A stretch of 64,000 nt of DNA from Candidatus Sulfopaludibacter sp. SbA3 (GTDB lineage Bacteria; Acidobacteriota; Terriglobia; Bryobacterales; Bryobacteraceae): NCBI GenBank assembly GCA_945893365.1, contig CAMDED010000010.1, positions 1-64,000 on the forward strand. The letters are read 5' to 3'. This document shows, piece by piece, positions 316 through 14,337 of the stretch; within the stretch, counting starts at the first letter, position 1; each line of letters starts with the position of its first letter. The notes under the pieces were generated by a model. The model was not told the origin of the DNA. It saw only the letters and a program-made list of their open reading frames with translations, and searched no databases. The translations under genes and the position numbers were made by a program.

Positions 316-1323
316 ATGCGCCGTCTTGCCCTATGTCTCCCACTCTGCGCTCTCGCGCTATCCGCTCAAACGAAGAAAATTGTCGTCTCGGGCTCCGACC
401 CCGAGACGCTTAAGGAATTGCGAGCCGCCTCCACCAAGGCGAATATCGTTCAAGTCACCGCCGACACCGTGATGAAGGAAATTGCGGATGCCGACGCCTA
501 TATCGGCGCCATCAAGCCGGCGGAGGTGCGCGCCGCCAAGAAACTGAAATGGGTCGCCATCATGAGCGCCGGCGCCGAAACGGTGTTGCACAAGTCCGGC
601 GGAACCGATCTTCGGGACAGCGACATCATCCTCACCAATAACCAAATCGTACAGGGTCCCGAGATCGCCGACCACGCGCTTGCGATGTTGCTGATGCTTT
701 CGCGCGGACTGAACAAATCGTTCCTGAACAAGCAGAAGGAGATATGGCAGGCGCGCCCCTACGGCGGCATTGAGCTTGCCGGAAAAACCGCGGTCATCAT
801 TGGAGTCGGCGGTATCGGACAGCAGATTGCCGTTCGCTCCTGGGCGTTCGGCATGACCGTGATCGGCGTCGACCCGGAAGACATCCCGTTCTCGCCGTTC
901 ATCAAGAAGGTGGTGAAACCGGATCAACTCGATGAAGTGATCCCGGAAGCCGATGTCGTCTTCATCTCCGCGCCGCATACGGAAAAGAGCCACAAGATGA
1001 TGGGCGCGAAGCAGTTCGACATGATGAAGAAGAATTCCTACTTTATCGCCGTCAGCCGCGGCGGAATTTACGACATGGGCGGCCTCGTGAAGGCGCTCGA
1101 CGGCAACAAACTCGCGGGCGCGGGCGTCGACGTGACCGATCCGGAGCCGCTTCCGCAAGGCCATCCCCTGTGGAAGTTCGACAACGCGCTGATCACGCCG
1201 CATATTGCCGGCCGCTCCGACAAGGACCGCGCGCGCATGGTGGGCACGATCCAGGAAAACATCCGCCGATTCTGCGACGGCAGGCCGCTCATCAACCAGG
1301 TCGACAAGCAGAAAGGATACTGA
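316..1323 (+). CDS. D-2-hydroxyacid dehydrogenase family protein with signal peptide
   Basis: This 335-residue protein has the two-domain layout of NAD-dependent D-isomer-specific 2-hydroxyacid dehydrogenases. The nucleotide-binding motif GVGGIGQQIA lies near residue 160. The family catalytic Arg sits in the SRGG segment, an acidic residue in DVTDPEPLP, and the His in TPHIAGRS. The family reduces 2-keto acids to D-2-hydroxy acids; the substrate here is unknown. The N-terminus (RRLALCLPLCALALSAQ) is a plausible Sec signal peptide, which is odd for an NAD enzyme. The next gene begins 6 bases after the stop and is also exported, so the two look like one operon. A ribosome binding site supports the ATG at 316. 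Confidence 0.85.
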   Translation: MRRLALCLPLCALALSAQTKKIVVSGSDPETLKELRAASTKANIVQVTADTVMKEIADADAYIGAIKPAEVRAAKKLKWVAIMSAGAETVLHKSGGTDLRDSDIILTNNQIVQGPEIADHALAMLLMLSRGLNKSFLNKQKEIWQARPYGGIELAGKTAVIIGVGGIGQQIAVRSWAFGMTVIGVDPEDIPFSPFIKKVVKPDQLDEVIPEADVVFISAPHTEKSHKMMGAKQFDMMKKNSYFIAVSRGGIYDMGGLVKALDGNKLAGAGVDVTDPEPLPQGHPLWKFDNALITPHIAGRSDKDRARMVGTIQENIRRFCDGRPLINQVDKQKGY

Positions 1324-1329
1324 TCCGGC

Positions 1330-2397
1330 ATGAAATCCGACGCACTCAACAGACGCGGCTTCCTCGCGGCCGCGGCCGCCGCGTTTCCTCTCGCGGCGGC
1401 GCTCCCTCTTGCGGCCCAGACGCCGCGCGATTGGAGCGGCCAGAATCCGGCGCGCTATCCGGAGCCCGACGTCCTGGTGCTCGATCCGAAATTCAAGAAA
1501 TATAAGATCGGTAACACTCCTATCCAGCGTTTGGCCACCGGGTACATGTGGGCCGAGGGTCCGGCCTGGAACGGGGTGGGCCGCTATCTGGTCTGGAGCG
1601 ACATTCCGAACAACCGGCAGATGCGCTGGCTCGAAGAGGACGGCCACGTCAGCGTCATGCGGCAGCCCGCCGGATACAGCAACGGCAACACGTTCGACTG
1701 GCAGGGCAGGCAGCTTTCCTGCCAGCATGGCGGACGCCAGGTGGTGCGCTACGAGCACACGGGCGCGACGACGGTGATCGCAAAGGAAGCGAACGGCAAG
1801 CCGCTCAACGCGCCGAACGATGCCGTGGTGCATCCCGAGGGCGACATCTGGTTTACCGATCCCGGGTATGGAATTTTGTTGAACTACGAGGGCAACGTGG
1901 CCCCGATGTCGCAGAAGGAAGCCATCTATCGCGTGGATGGCAAGAGCGGACAGATCGCCAAGGTGTCCGACGAGTTGTACAAGCCGAATGGTCTGTGCTT
2001 CTCGCCCGACTATAAGAAACTGTATGCCGCCGATACGGGTTCAACGCATTATCCGCAGGCGAAGAACATCGTGCAGAGCTGGGACGTTGTCGACGGCAAG
2101 AGTCTGCGCAACGGAAAGCAGTACGCGTCCATGGATCTCGGCGGCAAGAGCGGTCTGGCCGACGGCATTCGCGCGGATCGCGACGGCAACGTGTGGGTGG
2201 GCGCCGGGTGGGTAGGCGCGGGATACGACGGTGTGCACATCTTCTCGCCCGAGGGGCAGCGCATCGGACAAATTCTGTTGCCCGAGATCTGCGCGAATCT
2301 GTGCTTCGGAGGCCGGAAACGCAACCGCCTGTTCATGATGGGCAGCCAGTCGTTGTACGCCGTGTATACCGAAGCTCTCGGCGCGGGCTGCGCGTAG
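1330..2397 (+). CDS. SMP-30/gluconolactonase/LRE family protein, Tat-exported
   Basis: This 355-residue protein starts with a twin-arginine-like leader (NRRGFLAAAAAAFPLAAALP), so export is likely. The mature part is a six-bladed propeller of the SMP-30/gluconolactonase type. It shows EGPAW near the start, LNAPNDAVVHPEGDIWFTDP in the middle and KPNGLCFSPDYKKLY later, which carry the family's metal-binding Glu, Asn and Asp residues. The family hydrolyses sugar lactones; the natural substrate cannot be read from sequence. It follows the dehydrogenase gene by 6 bases and is probably co-transcribed, suggesting joint periplasmic sugar-acid metabolism (inference). Confidence 0.85.
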   Translation: MKSDALNRRGFLAAAAAAFPLAAALPLAAQTPRDWSGQNPARYPEPDVLVLDPKFKKYKIGNTPIQRLATGYMWAEGPAWNGVGRYLVWSDIPNNRQMRWLEEDGHVSVMRQPAGYSNGNTFDWQGRQLSCQHGGRQVVRYEHTGATTVIAKEANGKPLNAPNDAVVHPEGDIWFTDPGYGILLNYEGNVAPMSQKEAIYRVDGKSGQIAKVSDELYKPNGLCFSPDYKKLYAADTGSTHYPQAKNIVQSWDVVDGKSLRNGKQYASMDLGGKSGLADGIRADRDGNVWVGAGWVGAGYDGVHIFSPEGQRIGQILLPEICANLCFGGRKRNRLFMMGSQSLYAVYTEALGAGCA

Positions 2398-2581
2398 GGT
2401 TCAGCGGCCGGGCGGCGGCTCCGTTCGGCGCTCACCGCGCGGGATCCGTCCACCCGGTCGCGCAACCCGAGAGAGTAATGGATCTTGTGGCGCGACGCGA
2501 GATTGCCCCCACTTGCTCTGGAGCGTTGTTTCAACTTCGGGATTCAGGCTAAGAGTCGAAGGGTGGTAAGGCGGGTCTACT

Positions 2582-3295
2582 ATGGATTCTTCGGCGAAAG
2601 TGCGTGCCCAACAGATCGCGGTCACCCCAACAAAGGGAAAGGCTGCGCGAGAGTGTGCGTGCGGATGTGGGGAGATGACGAAGGGCGGCAAGTGGCGACC
2701 GGGACACGATGCAAAGTACCAAAGCATGATGAAGGGACCGAAGGCAGGGAAGGCAAATAGGCGCTTGATAACTGTTTCAGATCCTTCGGAAGTCGCGCCG
2801 CTTGTGGAGCGTCTCGGTGAAATGGCTGCGCTCGCGGCTGAGGCACTGGCAAAGGTAACGGCGGGTGGGTTTACTGGGCTGGAGGTGCTTCGCAAGATGA
2901 AATTCGATGCGATAGGATGGCATCCTTTCGACGATCCGGCGAGGCCTCTGAATCTGATCGAGCAAGTCAATCAGACGTGGACCTGCCTGGTGAGCCTCAA
3001 AGCGCTCCCGTTTCTATTTGATTGGCATCCCGATGTGGGCGGATTTCAGCTCAATCTTGCTACTCAGGGTGGTACGGACATTCTGAGCGTGTTTCCGGAT
3101 GCCGTAGCGGCGGAGGGATTCGCGGCGGTGACTTTAGACAACAATCGGAAGTTGGAAAAGGATCTGAAGAAACTGAAGCAGGAGCATCCGAAGGCGAAGG
3201 CGCGTTATGTGTTCTTCGCTGCGCCGGGCGTCAAACACGGGCGCCAGAACGCCCGAGAAAAGTACGGCATCAAAGTATGGAGTGTTGATGTCTGA
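2582..3295 (+). CDS. Unknown protein with N-terminal CxCGCG...GHD motif
   Basis: I do not recognise this 237-residue protein. Residues about 24-45 contain ECACGCGEMTKGGKWRPGHD, a short Cys cluster followed by GHD that resembles small zinc-binding segments seen in phage and plasmid-borne proteins. The middle (residues about 60-95) is predicted helical and Ala-rich. The C-terminal half is mixed and ends with KHGRQNAREKYGIKVWSVDV. The ATG at 2582 follows a purine-rich stretch (GGTAAGGCGGG). It sits immediately before a decayed recombinase tail, so it is probably cargo of a former mobile element. Its reading frame is open and ends cleanly, but expression is unproven. Confidence 0.55.
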   Translation: MDSSAKVRAQQIAVTPTKGKAARECACGCGEMTKGGKWRPGHDAKYQSMMKGPKAGKANRRLITVSDPSEVAPLVERLGEMAALAAEALAKVTAGGFTGLEVLRKMKFDAIGWHPFDDPARPLNLIEQVNQTWTCLVSLKALPFLFDWHPDVGGFQLNLATQGGTDILSVFPDAVAAEGFAAVTLDNNRKLEKDLKKLKQEHPKAKARYVFFAAPGVKHGRQNAREKYGIKVWSVDV

Positions 3296-3334
3296 GTCTG
3301 CTATCGTCTCGTGTGAAATGGCTACCGTGTGCGT

Positions 3335-3472
3335 ACGGACCACCTTACGAATGGTGGGCGCATCGAGGTCGCGCAACGTATGGTAGGGCATTCGAACGCC
3401 AAAACGACCTGGCTTTACGACCGGCGTAACGACGATATCAGTGTGGTCCAAATCGAGCGGATCGGGATTTGA
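3335..3472 (+). pseudogene. Decayed tyrosine recombinase C-terminus, copy 1
   Basis: The frame ending with TGA at 3470-3472 translates to TDHLTNGGRIEVAQRMVGHS, then NAKTTWLYDRR and NDDISVVQIERIGI. This is the C-terminal box of site-specific tyrosine recombinases: a GG.IE.AQ.M.GHS helix, then TT..YDRR with the nucleophile Tyr. A stop codon at 3314-3316 and the lack of any upstream catalytic domain show that only the tail remains. A second tail ending in the same bases lies at 9330-9499, on the other side of the efflux operon. Confidence 0.8.
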
Positions 3473-3611
3473 AAGGCTGGCGAGAAACAATGGGCATGCG
3501 GATTTTGCGTAACGGCGGATTATATTTTCGGAAGTGCTCTTACCGGCGCGGGGTACGATGGCCGGAATGCCCGGCACGGAAGACGGCGTTCAACGCATGC
3601 GGTCGCCCGGC

Positions 3612-6600
3612 TCAAAGGGCGGGCGTGCGCGCTGCATCGCCGCTGGTCTCCTTCCGCGTGAACCACGGATACAGCAGCGGCAGCAGGAACAGCGTCAGGC
3701 CCGTCGAGGTTACGAGGCCGCCGATCACAACCGTCGCGAGCGGCCTCTGAATCTCGGCGCCCGCCGAGGTCGATAACGCCATCGGCACGAATCCGAGGCT
3801 CGCCACCAGCGCTGTCATCAGCACCGGCCGCAGCCGCACTCCCGCTCCTTCCAGGACCGATTGGCTCATCGCCATGCCTTGCATCCTCAGCCGATTCACG
3901 GAACTCACCAACACGATGCCGTTGAGCACCGCCACTCCGAACAGCGCGATGAAGCCGACCGCGGCCGACAGATTCAAATTCATCCCCCGCGCCCACAGCG
4001 CCATGATCCCTCCCACCAGCGCGAACGGCACGTTCAACAATATGAGCAACGCCTGCGGCGCCGAGTCGAACGTCGCGAACAAGATGCCGAAAATGATCAG
4101 GACCGTGAGAGGAATCACGAGCGTCAACCGCTTCATCGCGCGTTCCTGGTTCTCGAACTGCCCGCCCCAATCGAGCCCATAACCCGGCGGCGGCGATACC
4201 TCTTTCGCCATCAACTCCTGCGCCTCCTTGACGAAGCTGCCGAGGTCGCGTCCCCGCACGTTGGCCTGAGCCACGATTCGTCGCTGGCCCTGCTCCCGCG
4301 TGATGATTTCCGGCCCCCGCGCCACTTCGACGCGCGCCACTCTCCCCAGCGGTATCCGCTCACCGGCCGGCGCCGTCAGCATCAATTGGCGGATCGATTC
4401 CACTTCTTCGCGATACCGGTCCGGCAGCCGCAGCACGATCGCAAACCTCCGCTGGCCCTCGATCATCTCGGAGACGGGGATGCCTCCGACCACGGCATCC
4501 ATCACCTCCCGCACGCCGGATACATTCAAGCCGTAGCGCGCGAGCGCCGCCCGGTCGACTTCCACGCGCAGCTCCGCCACGCCCGACACGATCTCCATTT
4601 GAACGTCGGCCGCGCCGCGGATCGAATTCAGCACGTGCGCCGCCCGCGCCGCGAGCCGCTCCAACACGCGCGGGTCTTCACCCGAGATCTTCAGCGCCAC
4701 GTCCGCCTTCACGCCCGACACGGTCTCATCCAGCCGCATCGCCATCGGCTGGGTGAAATTGAAAGCCATCCCCGGCACTTTCTCGAGCGCCAGCGCCAGC
4801 GCGTCGATCAGTTCTTCCTTGCGCTTGAAACGGGTCCACTGCTCGTAGGGCTTCAGCAGCACGTAGATGTCGCCCTGATAGATCCCCATCGCTTCCGTGG
4901 CCAGGTCCGGACGCCCAAGCTTCGTCACCACGCCCGACACTTCCGGAAAAGCGCACACGATTTTCTCGATCCGCGTCGACATCGCCACCGACTCGGTGAG
5001 CGAGATTCCCGGGAGCTTACGGCTCTCAATCAGGATCGAGCCTTCATCCAGCCGCGGCATGAACTCGGTCCCGAGCGACTTGAGCGAGCCGATGGTCGCG
5101 ATGGAGACGGCGATTGCGATTGTGATGGTCGCCTTCGCGTGCCGGAGGTGGAACGCAAGCGTCCGCTCATAGCGGCGCCGCAGCCAGTGGAACCAGTGTT
5201 CCCCGTGTTCCTTGGCGCCCTTGCGCAGCGCGAGCGAGGCCGCCGTCGGGATCACCGTCAGCGCCAGCACCAGCGACCCGAGCAGCGCCGAGCACACCGT
5301 CACCGCCATCGGCCGGAACATCCGGCCTTCCAGTCCTTCCAGGAAGAAAATAGGCAGGTACACGGCCATGATGATGAGGACGCCGAACGTAATGGGCCGC
5401 GCCACCTCGTGCGCCGCCTCGCGGATTTGCCGATGCGCGTCGAACCGGTCCGGCGAGGCTGGGTCCGGATGTAATTGCCGCACCGCGTTCTCCATCATCA
5501 CCACCGCGCCGTCGACGATCATGCCGAAGTCGATCGCCCCCATCGACATGAGGTTCGCCGAGATGCCGAAGACCCGCATGCCGATGAACGCGATCAACAT
5601 CGACAGCGGGATCACAGCCGCGACAATCAGCGCCGCCCGCACATTGCCGAGAAACACAAGCAGCACCACGATCACAAGCGCGCCGCCTTCCACCAGGTTC
5701 CGCTCCACCGTCCGGATGGTCGAATCGATGACCGAGGCCTGATCGTAGAACGGCACGATCTCCACGCCCTTCGGCAGCGTCAGCGACGCGAGGCGCCGCT
5801 TCACCCGCCCGATGACCTCCTTGCCGTTTTCGCCCTTCAGCATGATCGTCATTCCCGACACGGTTTCGCCCTTGCCGTCGCGCGTCACCGCGCCTTGCCG
5901 CGGCATCGGCCGGACAACCACGCTCGCCACGTCCCGCAGCAATACCGGGGTGCCGGCTTGGGCCAGAACGACGATCTGTCCCAACTCGTCCATATTTTTC
6001 GTGCGCCCCAGACCTCGCACGGTGTATTGCTCGGCGCCGTATTCGATGAATCCGCCGCCGAAATTCGTATTGTTCTCCCGGATGCGTTCGTAGATGCCGC
6101 GCAGCGTCAGGCCATAGCGCTGCAGGGCCTGGGGATCCACTTCCACGTGATACTGCCGGGTCTCGCCGCCCCAGGTGTTCACCTCGTTGATGCCGGGCAC
6201 CGTGCGCAGCTGGTTCTTGATCTGCCACTCGTGCAGCGTTTTCAGGTCCATCGCGGACAACCCGCCGCCGCGCAGCGTGTACTGATAAATTTCGCCGAAC
6301 GCCGTAGCCACCGGTCCCAGCCGTGGCTCCACGCCCTCCGGCAGCCGGGTCCGAACTTCCTGCAAACGCTCGTTGATCAGTTGCCTCGCGAAGTACGTGT
6401 TCACCGAGTCGTCGAAAATCACCGTCACCATCGACAAGCCCAGCTTCGACACCGAACGAACCTGCTCCATTTTCGGCAGGCCCATCATGGCCGTCTCAAT
6501 CGGATGGGTAACCAGCATCTCCATCTCGGACGGCGCCATGGCCGGACTCTCGGTGGTGATCACGACCTGATTGTTCGTCAGGTCCGGAAACGCATCCACT

Positions 6601-6704
6601 GGAATGCTCAACATCGCCACGATGCCGGCGGCCGCGACGGCGGCGAGTCCGATCATGACGAACAACCGGTGCCGCAAGTGGAAATCGACGATCCGGGCGA
6701 GCAC
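3612..6704 (-). CDS. czcA: Heavy-metal efflux RND transporter, CzcA/HME type
   Basis: This 1030-residue protein has the length and segment order of CzcA/CusA inner-membrane RND pumps. The first transmembrane helix is followed by IPVDAFPDLTNNQV, a hallmark of the heavy-metal family. The TM4 proton-relay segment, near residue 390, reads GAIDFGMIVDGAVVMMEN, with the two Asp and one Glu typical of the Czc-type (Zn/Co/Cd/Ni) subgroup rather than the Cu/Ag subgroup. Translation starts at GTG 6704, one base after the stop of the adaptor gene, so the genes are translationally coupled. It is the last gene of the operon and ends close to a decayed recombinase tail. Metal specificity is inferred. Confidence 0.92.
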   Translation of the reverse strand: MLARIVDFHLRHRLFVMIGLAAVAAAGIVAMLSIPVDAFPDLTNNQVVITTESPAMAPSEMEMLVTHPIETAMMGLPKMEQVRSVSKLGLSMVTVIFDDSVNTYFARQLINERLQEVRTRLPEGVEPRLGPVATAFGEIYQYTLRGGGLSAMDLKTLHEWQIKNQLRTVPGINEVNTWGGETRQYHVEVDPQALQRYGLTLRGIYERIRENNTNFGGGFIEYGAEQYTVRGLGRTKNMDELGQIVVLAQAGTPVLLRDVASVVVRPMPRQGAVTRDGKGETVSGMTIMLKGENGKEVIGRVKRRLASLTLPKGVEIVPFYDQASVIDSTIRTVERNLVEGGALVIVVLLVFLGNVRAALIVAAVIPLSMLIAFIGMRVFGISANLMSMGAIDFGMIVDGAVVMMENAVRQLHPDPASPDRFDAHRQIREAAHEVARPITFGVLIIMAVYLPIFFLEGLEGRMFRPMAVTVCSALLGSLVLALTVIPTAASLALRKGAKEHGEHWFHWLRRRYERTLAFHLRHAKATITIAIAVSIATIGSLKSLGTEFMPRLDEGSILIESRKLPGISLTESVAMSTRIEKIVCAFPEVSGVVTKLGRPDLATEAMGIYQGDIYVLLKPYEQWTRFKRKEELIDALALALEKVPGMAFNFTQPMAMRLDETVSGVKADVALKISGEDPRVLERLAARAAHVLNSIRGAADVQMEIVSGVAELRVEVDRAALARYGLNVSGVREVMDAVVGGIPVSEMIEGQRRFAIVLRLPDRYREEVESIRQLMLTAPAGERIPLGRVARVEVARGPEIITREQGQRRIVAQANVRGRDLGSFVKEAQELMAKEVSPPPGYGLDWGGQFENQERAMKRLTLVIPLTVLIIFGILFATFDSAPQALLILLNVPFALVGGIMALWARGMNLNLSAAVGFIALFGVAVLNGIVLVSSVNRLRMQGMAMSQSVLEGAGVRLRPVLMTALVASLGFVPMALSTSAGAEIQRPLATVVIGGLVTSTGLTLFLLPLLYPWFTRKETSGDAARTPAL

Positions 6705-6705
6705 C

Positions 6706-7923
6706 CTATTCCTCCGCCATCGACGATTTCATCAGTTGCGACTTCAGGATGAAGCTGCCCCGGGTTGCCACACGTTCTCCCGCTCGAAGGCCACTGAGCA
6801 CCTCGCGCGCGCCATCGAGCGGACGCCCCAGATCCACTGCTCGCGCCTCGAACAAATCTGCCGCCTTCCGCACGAAGACGACGTTCTGGCCTTTCACTTC
6901 CTGAATCGCAGCTTCTTTGACGAACAGCGCGGGGTGCGTTGCGCCGAGCGACAACTCCGCGGTCGCATACATCTCCGGCTTCAACAGCCCCGCGGCATTC
7001 GGCAGATCGACGCGGACCTTCACCGTGCGCGTGGTCTCGTCGAGCTGCTCTCCGATGCGCGTCACTCGTCCAAGAAATCCGCGTTTCGGATAGGCCTGCA
7101 CGGTTACCCGCACGGGCATCCCCGGCCGCACGTCCTTCAGGTGATCTTCCGGCACCGCCGCCATCAGCCACAGCACGCTCAGATCGGTAACCACGAACGC
7201 ATCGGCGCCGGGTTGCGTCACCGTCCCCGCCGTCACTTTGCGCTCAAGCAACACTCCGTCGGCAGGCGACTTGATCGGAATCAGGTCGTCATCCTCCTCG
7301 TGCTGTCCGTCCAGGTGCTCCGCTTCATCGGCCGGGATGCCCAGGAATTCCACCAGGTGCGTTCGCGAGCGTTCCACCTCGATCTGCGCATTGGAAATTT
7401 CGGTCTGCAGGTTGCGCAGCGCGGTCTCGGCGTGTTCCGCCTGTTCGAGGGAACCCGCTTTGATCTCAAACAGCCGCTTCGCCCGGTCCCGCTGGCGGAC
7501 TGCGTACGCCTCGGCGCTCTTGAGACGGCTGAGCTCCGCCGTCGCTTTCCGGTACAGAGCGCGCGATTCGTGGATATCGTGCGAGTGCATCCGCGCCAAT
7601 ACCTGCCCTCGTTTCACGTGGTCTCCGGCATTGACCAGCACCCTCACCACGCGCCCGTCGGTAACCGCGCCGACGCGCCAGCTTTGGTTCTCGTTCAGCG
7701 TGACACGGCCCGGCGCCAGCAGTACTTCCGGCAGCGCCTGCCGCTCCACCACTCCGGTCTCGATGCCCGCCTCCCGCTGCGCGGCCGCATCGAGGCGCAC
7801 CTCGTTACTCTGATCCGGGTGCGGAGCTTTCGGCTCCACGGCCGTCTTCACTTCCGGGGTCTCCGGCCTGCTGCCGCACGCGGACATCGCGATGACGAAT
7901 ACCACGATCATGGCGGACCTCAT
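6706..7923 (-). CDS. czcB: RND efflux periplasmic adaptor, CzcB type
   Basis: This 405-residue membrane fusion protein begins with a lipoprotein-like leader ending in MSAC, so it is probably lipid-anchored. The lipoyl/barrel-sandwich halves are visible around WRVGAVTDGRVVRVLVNAGD and the later SPADGVLLERKVTAGT. A long alpha-helical hairpin rich in Arg, Glu and Ala lies between them. A His/acid-rich insert (DGQHEEDDD) lies near residue 210 and could contact metal (inference). The adaptor links the inner-membrane pump to the TolC-type outer membrane channel. It lies 10 bases after the channel gene and one base before the pump gene. Confidence 0.9.
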   Translation of the reverse strand: MRSAMIVVFVIAMSACGSRPETPEVKTAVEPKAPHPDQSNEVRLDAAAQREAGIETGVVERQALPEVLLAPGRVTLNENQSWRVGAVTDGRVVRVLVNAGDHVKRGQVLARMHSHDIHESRALYRKATAELSRLKSAEAYAVRQRDRAKRLFEIKAGSLEQAEHAETALRNLQTEISNAQIEVERSRTHLVEFLGIPADEAEHLDGQHEEDDDLIPIKSPADGVLLERKVTAGTVTQPGADAFVVTDLSVLWLMAAVPEDHLKDVRPGMPVRVTVQAYPKRGFLGRVTRIGEQLDETTRTVKVRVDLPNAAGLLKPEMYATAELSLGATHPALFVKEAAIQEVKGQNVVFVRKAADLFEARAVDLGRPLDGAREVLSGLRAGERVATRGSFILKSQLMKSSMAEE

Positions 7924-7933
7924 GGTATAACCT

Positions 7934-9166
7934 TCATGGCATAATCCCCATTGCCGCCTCCACCGCCGCCAGGCTCTGCCGATATTCGGCCAAGGTCCTC
8001 ACGTAGAGGATCTCCGTCTCCAATCTCACTCGCTCGGCGTCAAGCAGCCGCAGCAGGTCGGCTCCGCCTTCGAGGTACGCGGCGCGCGCGATCTCGCCCG
8101 ACTGGCGAGCTTGCCCGAGCATCGGAATCAGGACACTCGTGATTTGCCGCTGCCGGATCTCAGTCTCGCGCCGGGCCGACGTCACCTCCGCGCGGACCAC
8201 GGCGGACGCCGCCGCCAGGTTCGCCTCGGCCACCTTGATCTCCGCGGCCGCTGTCTCGATGTTGCCCTGATTTCGATTCGAGAGAGGCAGATCGAACTGA
8301 ATTCCTCCGATCAGCGTGTTCAGTCCGAGCGTCCGCTTGTAGCCGAACAGGGCGTCCACGTTCGGCCGTGCCTGCGCCTGTTGCAGCCGCAACGCCGCCC
8401 GCGCCCGCTCGATGTCCGCGCGCCCGAGCTTCAACTCGGTCCGCTCTTCAAGCGCACGGTCCGGGTCGGCAACCACGGGCGGCGCGGCGGCGCCGTCGAG
8501 CGGATCGCCCATTGTCACTTCTGGGAATTCGGTCCGGCCCATTTCGCGGAACAACTCGATGCGGAATCTCTGAAAGTCCAGCAGCGCGGCGTTGATTGCG
8601 ACGTTCAGGCGCTCGCCCTCCAGCCGAACTCGCAGCAGATCGGCTTCCGCCATCGCTCCTTCGCGGACGCGCGCTTCGTGATATTCGATGATCTTGCCGA
8701 AGTTCCCGCGGCTCTCTCCGAGCAGCCGCTCGACCGCCTGCGCCCCGGCCGCGATCCAGTAGGCACGCTTCACGCGAGCGGCGATCTGTTTGGCGGTCAG
8801 CTCCCGTTCGAGTTCCGCCCGCTTTACCTGCTGCGACGCGACACCGGTTCGGAGATCCCGTCGGTTGGCCGTTTCCACGGTCTGCTGCAGGTAGACGAAC
8901 GAATCGGTGTCTTTCCAATACGGAAACGGCGGAGGCGCGGTAAATCGCGTATTCTCGTTCTGCAACACCAGCCTGGGGTTGTACCGCAGCGCCGCCTGCC
9001 GCTGCTGTCCCTGCGCCGCGTTGATCCGCTGCTCTCCGACCATGAGCATCGGGTGATTTTGCAGCGCTTGCGCCAACGCCTCCTGCAAACTCAGGGTGGA
9101 TTGTGCGAACGCCCCGCCGGGGGCGCCGATTACCAACAGAGCTGCCCGCAACCAACCGTTTTTCAT
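7934..9166 (-). CDS. czcC: TolC-family outer membrane efflux protein, CzcC type
   Basis: This 410-residue protein has a Sec signal peptide ending at GAFAQ, then two repeats of the outer membrane efflux protein fold. The first starts at LSLQEALAQALQNHPML, and the second has long coiled-coil helices such as DIERARAALRLQQAQARPNVDALFGY. It is the outer membrane channel of the tripartite metal efflux complex. It is the first gene of the minus-strand operon czcC-czcB-czcA. The upstream 160 bases contain a decayed recombinase tail on the opposite strand and no recognisable metal-responsive regulator gene. Confidence 0.9.
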   Translation of the reverse strand: MKNGWLRAALLVIGAPGGAFAQSTLSLQEALAQALQNHPMLMVGEQRINAAQGQQRQAALRYNPRLVLQNENTRFTAPPPFPYWKDTDSFVYLQQTVETANRRDLRTGVASQQVKRAELERELTAKQIAARVKRAYWIAAGAQAVERLLGESRGNFGKIIEYHEARVREGAMAEADLLRVRLEGERLNVAINAALLDFQRFRIELFREMGRTEFPEVTMGDPLDGAAAPPVVADPDRALEERTELKLGRADIERARAALRLQQAQARPNVDALFGYKRTLGLNTLIGGIQFDLPLSNRNQGNIETAAAEIKVAEANLAAASAVVRAEVTSARRETEIRQRQITSVLIPMLGQARQSGEIARAAYLEGGADLLRLLDAERVRLETEILYVRTLAEYRQSLAAVEAAMGIMP

Positions 9167-9329
9167 AGATCGTGTGGAGTGCTCCGACCCTCTATCTTAG
9201 CCGGATTCGGCGTTACCGGTCCTCGGAAGCCGCCGCCCCTGCGGGCGGCGCCTGTCGCTGCGGCGATCCGAAGTCTGCCCGCACACGAGAGCTCGCGCCG
9301 CTACAAAATACAAATAACAGGCCGGGAGG

Positions 9330-9499
9330 CTCGGCTGCCATACCTTCCGCGCAACGGGATAACGGACTACGTCACGACCGGGGGAGTATCGAGGTCGAGC
9401 AGCGCTTGGCCGGACACTCGAAACGCGAAGACGACCGCGCTCCACGACCTGCGCAGCGATGACATCGGCGTGGGAAGTGTCGAGCGGATCGGGATTTGA
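9330..9499 (+). pseudogene. Decayed tyrosine recombinase C-terminus, copy 2 (three frameshifts)
   Basis: Reading across frames gives CHTFRATG at 9336-9356, then ITDYVTTGG, then SIEVEQRLAGHS, then NAKTTALHDLRSDDIGVG and SVERIGI with TGA at 9497-9499. HTFR is the catalytic His-x-x-Arg box of tyrosine recombinases. The tail aligns with copy 1 at 3335-3472 and shares the identical last bases CGAGCGGATCGGGATTTGA. At least three frame changes are needed (near 9353, 9384 and 9420), and the Tyr nucleophile position appears as His in TTALHD. It is clearly non-functional. Confidence 0.8.
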
Positions 9500-10055
9500 G
9501 GTAGCACTGTACACCGGACCTCACAGTTGAAACGCACCGCGGCTTCCCCGCGCCAACCCTCGGCCGGACGCGCCTTCCCGCCTCAATTTCCGCGCAGCTA
9601 AAACGGACCTTAACTTACTCATTGCGAGACACGAAATCCCCGCGCCGCTCTGTTGGCGATCCCGGGATTCCCCTCGAACGATTTCCTTTGGGAGGAGCCG
9701 AAATGGGAGGAGCCGCAAAAACGAGGAGATCGCAAGCTTCCGCGAGCGAAATTACTGGGTGACGTTCTCGCAATATTCGAAGATCGAAGTGCGAGGCAAA
9801 CGCAGGAGCCGCTCCGTGGATTTCTTACGCCGGGCGGAGCAAATCCGCAGACTTGGCGGCGTCATCGGCTGGAAGTTCTCCAGGTTCCCGGCTGACCGGA
9901 ACGGTAAGGCGAACGCGCGCTTTGGTCCTCGAACAAGACCCGGCGCGCCGGAAGTCGTCCAGACGATTGAAAAGATGCTTCAGTATTCCACTGCCCCCTC
10001 ACTTTACCCTCAAGGTAATGGCCGATTCTGTCGATGAGTCTCACGGAGGAAGATT
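9500..10055. other. Non-coding stretch upstream of the motility genes
   Basis: No gene with recognisable homology is visible in these 556 bases. A 15-base micro-repeat is present: TGGGAGGAGCCG occurs at 9689-9700 and again at 9704-9715. One frame around 9722-9900 stays open and reads EEIASFRERNYWVTFSQYSK and on, which looks protein-like but has no clear start, so it may be a gene remnant. Just before flbD the palindrome TTACC-CTCAA-GGTAA (10004-10018) is followed by GCCGAT (10021-10026), which resembles the -10 of a FliA promoter without a good -35. Confidence 0.4.
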
Positions 10056-10283
10056 GTGATTCACTTAACCCGGTTGAACCACACGCCCTTGGTTCTGAAT
10101 GCGGACCTGATTGAGTTCATCGAGGCGACGCCCGACACGGTGGTTACCCTGACCACGGGGCAGAAACTGATGTTGCTCGAATCCGCCGATGAGATCATCG
10201 CCAAAGTGATCGACTTCCGCCGCTCGATTCTGGCGGGGCCGGCCGAGCCGCTTCGTCTCGCGAGAAAGGCCGATGAGCGATAG
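10056..10283 (+). CDS. flbD: Flagellar FlbD family protein
   Basis: This 75-residue protein matches the small FlbD family: it begins IHLTRLNHTPLVLNADLIEF and has PDTVVTLTTGQKLMLLES in the middle. It starts with GTG at 10056 behind an AGGA ribosome binding site. FlbD-family proteins are encoded next to flagellar motor genes, and this one overlaps motA by 11 bases. Its molecular role is not firmly established; it should not be confused with the Caulobacter response regulator of the same name. Confidence 0.88.
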   Translation: MIHLTRLNHTPLVLNADLIEFIEATPDTVVTLTTGQKLMLLESADEIIAKVIDFRRSILAGPAEPLRLARKADER

Positions 10284-11130
10284 GAGGAGCGACAAGGGGC
10301 CAAGGAACGTGCGGTCCAAGCTCGATTTCGCAACCGTCTTGGGAATCATTCTCGCGCTCGGCGGAATCCTGGGCGGACTCGTGCTTGAGGGAGGGAATCT
10401 TTCCGAGATTCTGGCGCCGACGGCTCTGCTAATCGTTCTCGGCGGAACGGTGGGCGCCGTGCTGGTCACAACTCCTCAAGACGTATTGGGCCGGGCCTGC
10501 CGGCGTATCTTCGAGGTCTTTATCGAGAAGAGCGTTTCCACTCCGGATATGATCGAGGAGTTGATTGGGTATGCCGCCAAGGCGCGAAGGACGGGCATCG
10601 TCTCTCTGGAATTCGACGCTCCCAACGCCAGCGATCCTTTTCTGAGTAAAGCCCTCACACTTGCGATTGACGGCACCGACATTGATGAAGTACGCAGGAT
10701 GATGGAGTTGGATATCACGATTGCGGAGCAGCGCGGCGAGGCCGAGGCCCGGGTGTTCGAGGCGGCTGGCGGCTATTCGCCGACCATCGGCATCATCGGC
10801 GCCGTGCTCGGCCTCATTCAAGTGATGAAAAACCTCGCCAATATCGATGAGGTGGGCCACGGAATCGCCACGGCATTCGTCGCCACGATATACGGCGTGG
10901 GGTTTGCGAACGTTTTCTTTCTACCCGCCGCGGCAAAAATCCGGGCCCGGCTGGAGACGGCCGCGCAACTCAAGGAGATGATGCTCGAAGGCGTTGTAGC
11001 CATGGTCGAGGGCCTCAATCCCAAGTTGGTTCGCGCAAAGCTGGAAGCCTATCATCACCGTCCGGAGCAGCCCCGGCTTAAGGACAGGGACAGGGACGAA
11101 ACAGGAGTGAAGGAGACGTCGCGTGCGTAA
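10273..11130 (+). CDS. motA: Flagellar motor stator protein MotA
   Basis: This 285-residue membrane protein has the MotA/TolQ/ExbB channel layout: TM1 (TVLGIILALGGILGGLVLEG), TM2 near residues 55-75, a cytoplasmic domain, and paired TM3/TM4. The latter pair contains the conserved GGYSPTIGIIGAVLGLIQVM and IATAFVATIYGVGFAN. It forms the proton- or sodium-conducting stator with MotB. The reading frames flbD, motA and motB overlap by 11 and 8 bases, which indicates one operon with coupled translation. Confidence 0.93.
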   Translation: MSDRRSDKGPRNVRSKLDFATVLGIILALGGILGGLVLEGGNLSEILAPTALLIVLGGTVGAVLVTTPQDVLGRACRRIFEVFIEKSVSTPDMIEELIGYAAKARRTGIVSLEFDAPNASDPFLSKALTLAIDGTDIDEVRRMMELDITIAEQRGEAEARVFEAAGGYSPTIGIIGAVLGLIQVMKNLANIDEVGHGIATAFVATIYGVGFANVFFLPAAAKIRARLETAAQLKEMMLEGVVAMVEGLNPKLVRAKLEAYHHRPEQPRLKDRDRDETGVKETSRA

Positions 11131-11866
11131 GAAGACCCACCCTTCCCACGCTAACCACGAACGCTGGCTGGTGTCGTACGCCGACTTCATCACCTTGCTT
11201 TTTGCCTTCTTCGTCGTGATGTTCGCCTCTTCAAACGCGGATCGCGGCCGCGCCGAACAGGTGTCGGAATCCGTAAAGAAAGCCTTCGGTCCGGATAAGA
11301 TCAAACACGCCATGGCCGGCGCGGCCCAGGCGGCAAAGAAAGCGCCGGCAAAGGAAGCGCCGGTCCCCGGTATGCCGACCCTCGACGCGTTACGCCGCGC
11401 ACTCCAGATGGAGATCGACACCGGCATGATTCAGGTTACCCTTGAAGCCCGAGGCTTGGTGATCAGCCTCAAACAGGCGAGCTTTTTTCCGTCCGGCCAG
11501 GATCTGATCGATGTAAACACCTACCCGGCCATGGAGAAGATTGCCGCCCAGGTTCGCGCCCTGCCGAACAAGATCCGTCTTGAAGGGCACACCGATGGCG
11601 ACCGGATCCGAAACGGCCGTTTCCCATCAAACTGGGAACTCTCGGCGGCGCGCAGCGTGGCCGTTCTCAACCTGTTCGGAGATCGCTACACGATTCCAAC
11701 GGGGCGATTCTCCGTTGCCGGCTATGCCGACACCATCCCCATTGCCGAGAACGACACGCCGGAGAACAAAGCCCGCAACCGGCGCGTCGATATCGTAATC
11801 CTCAGCGATTCGGGAGAGAAGGAAGAACCCCGCGCGCGAGTCTCGCCAAAGCCGGGTGGCCATTAG
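11123..11866 (+). CDS. motB: Flagellar motor stator protein MotB (OmpA-like C-terminus)
   Basis: This 247-residue protein has the single N-terminal transmembrane helix with the essential ion-binding Asp at residue 21 (VSYADFITLLFAFFVVMFA). A plug/linker region follows, then an OmpA-like peptidoglycan-binding domain with LEGHTDGDRI, NWELSAARS and NRRVDIVI. It anchors the stator to the cell wall. It starts at GTG 11123, overlapping motA. No other flagellar structural genes are in the window, apart from the distant fliA-type sigma factor gene at 21688. Confidence 0.93.
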   Translation: MRKKTHPSHANHERWLVSYADFITLLFAFFVVMFASSNADRGRAEQVSESVKKAFGPDKIKHAMAGAAQAAKKAPAKEAPVPGMPTLDALRRALQMEIDTGMIQVTLEARGLVISLKQASFFPSGQDLIDVNTYPAMEKIAAQVRALPNKIRLEGHTDGDRIRNGRFPSNWELSAARSVAVLNLFGDRYTIPTGRFSVAGYADTIPIAENDTPENKARNRRVDIVILSDSGEKEEPRARVSPKPGGH

Positions 11867-11958: not shown

Positions 11959-14337
11959 CTATTGCACGGCTATCGTCACGGTGTTGGACGTGACGCTCCC
12001 GACAGTGATGATGACCGGCACGGCGCTCCCAGGAGAAACGCTCGCCGGCACCTGCGCATTCACCTGGTACAGGCCCGCAAAGCCGGGCGCCAACCCGGAG
12101 TAGTTCAACGTCGCCGTAACGCCGCCGATGGTTACGGTGGGCGTCGCCGTCGTGAGCGACAACGGATCGGCTTGAGCGGCAATCCCCGTCACAGGCTGGT
12201 TGGTCACCGGTCCGAGGCCGGTGCAGAAGATTGAGACGTATCCGCCGCGCGGGGCCGGCGTGCCAGGCGCGGCAAGCTGAGACGTCGGTGCGATCAGAAT
12301 CGCTCCCTGACCCGTTCCCAACGCGTTCGTCGAAAAGATACCGGGAGCGAAGGGCGCAAGAGGCACGGTCTGCGTGTTTGAAGCTACGCCGTTAACCGTT
12401 GCAATGATCGAAGTTTGTGTCTGGCCCGCCAACTCCCAAGGGATCTGCAGAATCACCTGGGCCGGTATGGCGAAAAAGAGGGGCGCCGCCCGGCCACCGA
12501 TCGTAAAACTGCCTTGGGCGAGGGTGGTGGGCAAGGGAGAAGGCGCCATCGAGGACGCCTGCCCAATGGCGAGGTTGCTTCCGAAGACAGCCGCGATGCT
12601 GCCGGGGGCGACTGGAGCCGCGTAGCTCGCGACGTTCACGGTGCCGGACAGACTGATCACGGGGGGAGGCGTGGGCGTCGCCGCCGTCGTAAAGCTCCAT
12701 ACATAGTTACCGGCCAGTGCATTGCCCGCGAGGTCCCTGACGCCCGTTGTAATGGTGGCGGTATATACAGTGCTTGGGGCCAGACTGCTTAGCGGCGCAA
12801 AGGCCGCCGCCGTTCCACTATAGGTCACATTGCCTGAAACAGGCGTTGCCCCTTGCTGTAAGGTGACGGTTGCGGTGGTGATGGTTAAAGGATCCATCGG
12901 CTCACTGAAGGTTGCGGTGACGGCGCTCCCAATGGTTACCCCCTGTGCGGCGTTACTCGGGACTGTGGAGCTCACCGTGGGCGCCGTGAGGTCCGCGCTC
13001 GAACCCGTGGTGAAATTCCAGACATAGTTGCCCGCCAGCGCATTGCCCGCCAGATCCCTGGCGCCGGTTGTCACGGTGGCGGTATAGGCGGCTCCGGAGG
13101 TCAGAATGTTTTGCGGTGCGAAGGTCGCCGTCGCGCCGGCGTAGGTCACAAGGCCCGGCACGGACGTTGTCCCTTGCGTCAAGGTAAACGTCGAAGTGGT
13201 GATGGTGGATGGATCCATCGCCTCGGAGAAGGTCGCGGTGAGTTTGTTGCCGATAGGCACGCCGGTGGCTCCGCTGGCAGGGACGGTCGAAATCACAGTG
13301 GGTGGAGTGGTGTCCGCGATCGAACCTGTTATAAAGCTCCAGACATAGTTCCCGGCCAGCGCATTGCCCGCCGCATCCCTCGCGCCGGTCGTAATCGTCG
13401 CGGTGTACGGGACGCCCGGGGCCAGATTGCTTACCGGCGAAAAGGTCGCGGTTATTCCGGCGTAGGTCACGGCGCCCGGAACAGGCGTTGTCCCTTGCGT
13501 CAAGGTAAAGGTCGCTGAAGTGAGCGTGGCTGGATTCATCGCCGTACTAAAGGCCGCGGTGAGCTTGTTCCCGACAGGCACGCCAAGGGCCCCACTCAAG
13601 GGGACCGTGGAAGTGACCGTGGGCAATGTCGCGGCTACCGGAATCGTGGCGCTGGTGCCGCCGCCGGTGTCCAGGGTAACCGCGCCGCCCATTGCCAGCG
13701 CTCTGCCCGCGAGGGTCGAGCCGGTGAGCATCGAGATGGATACGGCGGCCAGGATGTTTCCCTGAAAGACGGAGGTCGTTCCAATGGTCGCCGAGCTTCC
13801 GACCTGCCAGAAGATGTTGGCGGCTTTAGCTCCGCCGGCCAGGATAACCTGACGGCCGGATGTCGTCGTGAGCGTCGAGGCAATCTGGAATATCCAGACG
13901 GCGTTTGCGTTGCCCTGGGCGTCGAGAGTGAGGTCCCCCGACGATATCGCCAGCGAGGAGGTGGATTTGTAGAGGCCGGGGGCGAGGGTCTGCCCGCCTA
14001 TGTTTCCCGCCACGGTGATAGCGTTTACGGTTCGTCCGGCGGCGTCGTTGAAGGCAGTAGTCAAGTCAAGTTGGGCTTGTGCCGCGACCGGACCACCGGC
14101 GTATAGCGTTCCGTTGACCGTCACGGCCGGGTTTCCAGCGATATAAGCAGTACCTGGAAATATCCCGATATTCCCCGTAATCGTGCCGCCACCCGTAACG
14201 GTGACCGTTGTGCCGGCCAGGATCGCGAAGGTCGAGTTCGATCCGAGGTTTACGGGGGCTTGTTGCGCCCTGGCGGTTATGGCCGTCAGGCAAAGGCCAG
14301 ACGCAAGAGAAAGTACGAACGCGTTGAACTTATTCAT
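11959..14337 (-). CDS. Secreted ice-binding-like (DUF3494) protein with three Ig-like repeats and TIGR03437 C-terminus
   Basis: This 792-residue protein begins with a Sec signal peptide ending near ITARAQQ. Residues about 28-225 form a DUF3494 ice-binding domain (VNLGSNSTFAILAGTTVTV, then GNIGIFPGTA and GTLYAGGPVAAQAQLDLTTA). Three bacterial Ig-like (Big_5/SbsA type) repeats of about 100 residues follow. Each opens with a P(T/P)V.STVP.sGA.GV sequence and closes with GNALAGNYVW.F(T/I)TG. The C-terminal 220 residues match TIGR03437, with SYAAPVAPGSIAAVFGSNLA and an FCTGLGPV motif. DUF3494 proteins bind ice or act as surface adhesins; which applies here is not known. It stands alone on the minus strand. 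Confidence 0.88.
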   Translation of the reverse strand: MNKFNAFVLSLASGLCLTAITARAQQAPVNLGSNSTFAILAGTTVTVTGGGTITGNIGIFPGTAYIAGNPAVTVNGTLYAGGPVAAQAQLDLTTAFNDAAGRTVNAITVAGNIGGQTLAPGLYKSTSSLAISSGDLTLDAQGNANAVWIFQIASTLTTTSGRQVILAGGAKAANIFWQVGSSATIGTTSVFQGNILAAVSISMLTGSTLAGRALAMGGAVTLDTGGGTSATIPVAATLPTVTSTVPLSGALGVPVGNKLTAAFSTAMNPATLTSATFTLTQGTTPVPGAVTYAGITATFSPVSNLAPGVPYTATITTGARDAAGNALAGNYVWSFITGSIADTTPPTVISTVPASGATGVPIGNKLTATFSEAMDPSTITTSTFTLTQGTTSVPGLVTYAGATATFAPQNILTSGAAYTATVTTGARDLAGNALAGNYVWNFTTGSSADLTAPTVSSTVPSNAAQGVTIGSAVTATFSEPMDPLTITTATVTLQQGATPVSGNVTYSGTAAAFAPLSSLAPSTVYTATITTGVRDLAGNALAGNYVWSFTTAATPTPPPVISLSGTVNVASYAAPVAPGSIAAVFGSNLAIGQASSMAPSPLPTTLAQGSFTIGGRAAPLFFAIPAQVILQIPWELAGQTQTSIIATVNGVASNTQTVPLAPFAPGIFSTNALGTGQGAILIAPTSQLAAPGTPAPRGGYVSIFCTGLGPVTNQPVTGIAAQADPLSLTTATPTVTIGGVTATLNYSGLAPGFAGLYQVNAQVPASVSPGSAVPVIITVGSVTSNTVTIAVQ

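Follow-up and report, generated by a model that had tools for sequence, protein, structure and literature searches.

The 64,000-nucleotide stretch analysed here (the window; positions 1-64000 of contig C10 of Candidatus Sulfopaludibacter sp. SbA3) carries a czcCBA-type operon flanked on both sides by the C-terminal ends of tyrosine recombinase genes. With a probability of about 70%, these two tails are independent pseudogene scars of plasmid recombinases, left in a stretch (about 2400-10000) that has been rearranged within the genus, around a native operon that has changed place. The bracketed arrangement is thereby read as a product of ordinary genome decay.

Identity of the recombinase tails and of their shared end

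Tail 1 (3334-3472, plus strand) corresponds to the last 45 codons and the stop codon of a plasmid-type XerC/D-like tyrosine recombinase; it is a single open frame (codons 3335-3469, stop to 3472) with the translation TDHLTNGGRIEVAQRMVGHSNAKTTWLYDRRNDDISVVQIERIGI, and shares 87% identity with residues 277-321 of its nearest intact relative. Tail 2 (about 9312-9499, plus strand) belongs to the same family; a C-terminal remnant with frameshifts, it retains the sequence CHTFRATG, with the HTFR box at about 9339. Both tails align with the C-terminus of this family through the HTFR box and the conserved protein end, and the residues left to them (277-321 in tail 1 and about 260-321 in tail 2) do not make up a complete catalytic domain. 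Against intact recombinases, E values range from about 1e-9 to 1e-20 for tail 1 and from about 1e-4 to 1e-11 for tail 2, strong enough that the matches are not due to chance; a Pfam search with the bare tail peptides returned zero matches because the peptides are too short. Among the plasmid XerC/XerD-like recombinases compared (PF00589 and PF02899; WP_063501279, WP_285833798 and WP_007682488), WP_063501279 shows 51% identity to tail 1 over its residues 275-317. These proteins have in common with the tails the HTFR box and an end of the form LYDR-x2-D-x-I...VERI, but they are intact, whereas the copies in the window are truncated, with tail 2 frameshifted.

The original prediction, made from the sequence of the window, had described two recombinase tails in the same orientation, about 140 bases beyond czcA and about 160 bases before czcC, the second with an HTFR box and three frame changes. 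Sequence alignment bears out their positions and orientation, the three frameshifts of tail 2 (accompanied by one stop) and the gaps: tail 1 is separated from the czcA stop by 139 bases, and tail 2 from the czcC start by about 145-165. Its view of the tails as remnants of a mobile-type tyrosine recombinase also holds, the type being that of plasmids. In DNA and protein searches of the whole 7,882,498-base assembly (7.88 Mb, 299 contigs, 97% complete), the tail occurs in these two copies only, no intact member of its family turns up at E 1e-20, and the remaining 16 Phage_integrase matches are of other families.

The two tails end in the same bases, as predicted, the identical stretch extending over 20 bases, TCGAGCGGATCGGGATTTGA, at 3453-3472 in tail 1 and at 9480-9499 in tail 2, both on the plus strand. 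The prediction had left it to an alignment with intact recombinases whether these bases are an attachment site or a conserved recombinase end, and the outcome is a conserved protein end. The stretch holds the codons for an ERIGI-stop end, and the ERI-x-I-stop that it encodes fits the conserved protein end of the family (V/I-E-R/K-I/V-x-I or similar). An attachment site located at the 3' end of the recombinase's own gene would account for the homology among all copies ending at the stop codon or within a few bases of it, as it does in pairwise DNA alignments of 13 subfamily loci. However, the intact genes vary synonymously at this end, conserving the amino acids while their codons differ at third positions, and no conserved DNA follows the stop codon in the intact genes compared. 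Since codons vary and homology ends at the stop, the shared 20 bases are, as judged from these alignments, coding sequence for a conserved protein end, and the probability that they serve as an attachment site is close to nil. No attachment-site repeats were found at the two ends of the operon, where the sole shared end sequence is this coding one.

A recombinase family of plasmids

Intact members of the family comprise about 320 residues with Phage_integrase and SAM-like N-terminal domains, and they resemble XerD/XerC yet score far below the XerD/XerC NCBIfam cut-offs. Relatives occur on 147 plasmids of PLSDB with a C-terminal query and on 130 with an N-terminal query, nearly always as one copy per plasmid, while among 50,697 phages they are confined to three near-identical cyanophage records. 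In 12 plasmid neighbourhoods, the gene immediately ahead of the recombinase is mostly a small, variable one, and the two often overlap by 4 bases; toxin-antitoxin-like genes are found nearby in about 7 of the 12, and VapBC, PIN, HigA, RelE/ParE or 'mobile mystery' genes in several. At PLSDB loci L077, L079, L220, L221 and L223-L226, the recombinase starts inside or at the last codons of an upstream gene that differs from plasmid to plasmid, so that recombinases of one family are joined to many small genes of unrelated kinds, mostly by a 4-base overlap. The nearest intact relatives of the tails reside in other genera of the host family, where the recombinase of G164 (321 aa) adjoins a UPF0175-DUF3368 pair and that of G205 (325 aa) adjoins a ParA-like ATPase and an Antitox_RHH antitoxin-like gene. 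The position of the recombinase as the last gene of small plasmid operons in living members and its toxin-antitoxin neighbours suggest, as the most likely role, one in the maintenance of plasmids, by way of multimer resolution or integration.

Decayed copies with the same 3' end are found in several other genera; most are truncated pseudogenes, and their neighbours are unrelated. A different arrangement is seen on contig C456 of G032 (locus L216, 1104-6154, at about 61.1-66.2 kb of the contig), where about six N-terminal recombinase fragments in one orientation alternate with toxin-antitoxin genes (ParE, UPF0175-DUF3368, FitA-like/PIN and others) and the array closes with a single C-terminal recombinase end, in the manner of a cassette. 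The family might form modules, each a variable pair of toxin-antitoxin or other genes followed directly by the recombinase, and these would become stacked when recombination takes place within the recombinase gene; the tails around czcCBA, C-terminal pieces bracketing a cargo, could then be the mirror product of such stacking, an idea to which we attach a very small probability.

Two scars, probably not one event

The original prediction had taken the shared tails for the border marks of an element, or else for the trace of two copies having recombined. A single crossover that integrated a circle carrying czcCBA into a recombinase gene, or a recombination between two copies, would leave direct repeats, and the tails do agree in orientation and in their end; the same operon in the congener G001 also lies between direct repeats, there of a metallo-beta-lactamase-like gene fragment. 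Yet tail 1 and tail 2 are only 75-76% identical in DNA over their common part, which is below the identity of either to copies from other genera (tail 1, 83% to the G112 copy and 81% to the G164 copy; tail 2, 81% and 80%, respectively). Their 5' limits fall at different codons, whereas a crossover product would start identically at a common breakpoint. Recent duplication, conversion or crossover between the two tails is thus not visible in either the identities or the 5' limits, which leaves the direct-repeat explanation highly doubtful and the proposal of element borders unsupported.

A sister relationship of the tails was considered and set aside: the identities oppose a recent duplication, and a tree of the 140-base tails has support of 13-27%; the two could still go back to a very old common origin or ancient duplication. 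A site-specific break at the HTFR box was likewise rejected; several tails start near it (as at G164 5698-5727), but in a base-level alignment the starts scatter over about 100 bases.

Searches of the genome detect no copies besides these two tails, neither of which is more than 170 bases from the operon, and the chance of two copies falling this close under random placement is about 0.0015, which counts against unconnected scars. However, recombinase fragments of the tails' family or of related ones also cluster in G029, G032, G183 and G206, so the figure is no evidence for a link to czc. The low support of the tail tree is a second point against reading the scars as independent.

A probably native operon in a rearranged region

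The operon comprises, all on the minus strand, czcA (3612-6704), an HME-RND permease scoring 1169.6 bits to TIGR00914 CusA/CzcA (cut-off 701) with 87% DNA identity to G001; czcB (6706-7923), a periplasmic adaptor above the TIGR01730 cut-off with a PF16576 match; and czcC (7934-9166), a PF02321 outer-membrane factor with 80% amino acid identity to the G001 copy. A CusA/CzcA permease, an adaptor and an outer-membrane factor in one operon predict a CzcCBA-type system for divalent metal efflux. In comparison with known CzcCBA/HME-RND operons, the C-B-A order and the three components are alike, and the operon in the window differs in that no regulator was identified adjoining it.

Sequences of the czcCBA type are present in 62 of the 150 genomes of the host family, in neighbourhoods that differ between genera. 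The closest is that of G001, at 81-87% DNA identity against about 70% for the next best, a pattern in keeping with descent within the genus. In G001, the operon sits at a different location, without recombinase tails. The block common to the window and G001 (3571-9207) consists of the operon and about 41 bases on each side, beyond which the flanks differ; the operon has thus changed place in one lineage, and to this extent the original prediction of a moved operon stands. This block also counts against two scars unconnected with the operon, since it moved as a unit.

That the recombinases brought czcCBA in, the other half of the prediction, was not borne out. The operon could be cargo of an integrated plasmid or integrative element of the recombinase family, with the tails as what survives of two recombinase genes, either from one such element or from two nested ones; the closeness of both tails to its ends as sole copies in the genome, the plasmid-like gene 2582 described below and the movement of an operon-only block between congeners would all suit such an origin. 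Set against these are the presence of the operon in G001 at ortholog-level identity without tails, the lack of rep/par genes and of defined element ends, and the two surveys: no relative of the recombinase lies near czc at any of 23 further czc loci from Bryobacterales (for 20 of which about 6-7 kb of flank was included wherever the contig was long enough), and czc is near none of 14 other recombinase loci. Although a recombinase remnant stands at each operon end in the window, czcCBA does not travel with the recombinase in these other genomes. We regard the cargo explanation as unlikely, and nothing shows that recombinases moved the operon.

Several observations were made on the czc loci in passing. 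The direct repeats that bracket the G001 operon comprise a metallo-beta-lactamase-like gene together with the region upstream of it, about 91% identical over 327 bp (L032 4989-5411 versus L069 1631-2131), one copy being complete and the other a fragment. The G001 czcB seems to be interrupted by an insertion sequence that, by its look, we take to be of the IS630 type; the two ends of this insertion are contig ends (L032 1-137, L069 1-137). A meaningful proximity of czc and flbD was also rejected, as it recurs in G028 only (about 5.6 kb, in another relative orientation), that is, at one of 20 loci, and is put down to coincidence.

The surroundings of the operon were compared with the congeners. 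On the left, Pfam matches identify a D-2-hydroxyacid dehydrogenase gene (316-1323, plus strand) and an SMP-30/gluconolactonase-like gene (1330-2397, plus strand), and positions 262-2397 share 86% DNA identity with contig C112 of G001, where homology then ends and unrelated genes follow. On the right, flbD, motA and motB (10056-11866, plus strand; Pfam) belong to a flank with about 76% DNA identity to G001 C352 and G002 C29, starting at window positions 10009-10046. The stretch from 2398 to about 10008 is not common to the congeners. A clean empty site, sought in relatives as the prediction had suggested, was not found: in G001 the left and right flanks belong to separate contigs and border on unrelated DNA, and in G002 the right flank alone was found. 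The genes upstream of flbD-motA-motB in G001 and G002 differ from those of the window, and as those upstream of flbD-motA differ in every genus compared, they give no polarity for the ancestral neighbour. Further right, a 300-base repeat occurs three times at 321-base spacing (12684-13625) within a 792-aa gene on the minus strand (11959-14337); a tRNA-Ser call at 12185-12268 falls inside this gene too and may be false.

Gene 2582 (2582-3295, plus strand, 237 aa) was suspected of being foreign and is foreign-looking. Outside G000, it has one weak match in 150 genomes of the host family; its C-terminal part shares 46% identity with a protein encoded close to repA-parA on a plasmid of Sulfitobacter, and its N-terminal part matches the phage families phrog_5477 and phrog_5395, whose function is unassigned. 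The N-terminal part carries a CxCGCG..GHD motif that is present in phage protein families.

The favoured account, that of plasmid-recombinase scars around a native operon, would begin with plasmid DNA, bearing the recombinase and its neighbours, integrating on one or several occasions into an unstable chromosomal stretch. The integrated DNA would then have lost most of its genes through decay from the 5' side and frameshifts, leaving the recombinase 3' ends and gene 2582, which is probably plasmid-derived; the native czcCBA would have moved into the unstable region or have been present there already. The operon would stand between two scars because that unstable region contains both. The comparisons above show what the tails are, that their family is of the plasmid type, that the region is not common to the congeners and that the operon has relocated, whereas the integration of a plasmid as the source and the independence of the two scars are what we infer; counted against this account is that no plasmid backbone genes (rep, par) lie beside the tails in the window.

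Candidatus Solibacter usitatus Ellin6076, which we take to belong to the same Acidobacteriota order as the host, provides a comparison. The part of its published account drawn on here reports 123 mobile-element genes and 32 recombinases of the XerD type, along with degenerate islands in which fragments related to phages and plasmids occur, so that genome decay is known from the host's group; that part contains neither the operon of the window nor its recombinase family (PMC3174227). In Acinetobacter, the metal-resistance islands G08 and G62 hold metal resistance genes near integrase genes; as far as the part of the report used here describes them, these islands have working integrases and undergo excision, whereas the window has no intact recombinase, borders or att site (PMC6070778).

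The case cautions against taking shared gene ends for attachment sites, and it illustrates that a striking bracketed arrangement can come from ordinary remnants of plasmid maintenance genes. The toxin-antitoxin/recombinase array of G032 is the one lead of wider interest and may merit separate study. For the Bryobacterales, the locus adds one case of plasmid-derived DNA and operon relocation in their genomes.
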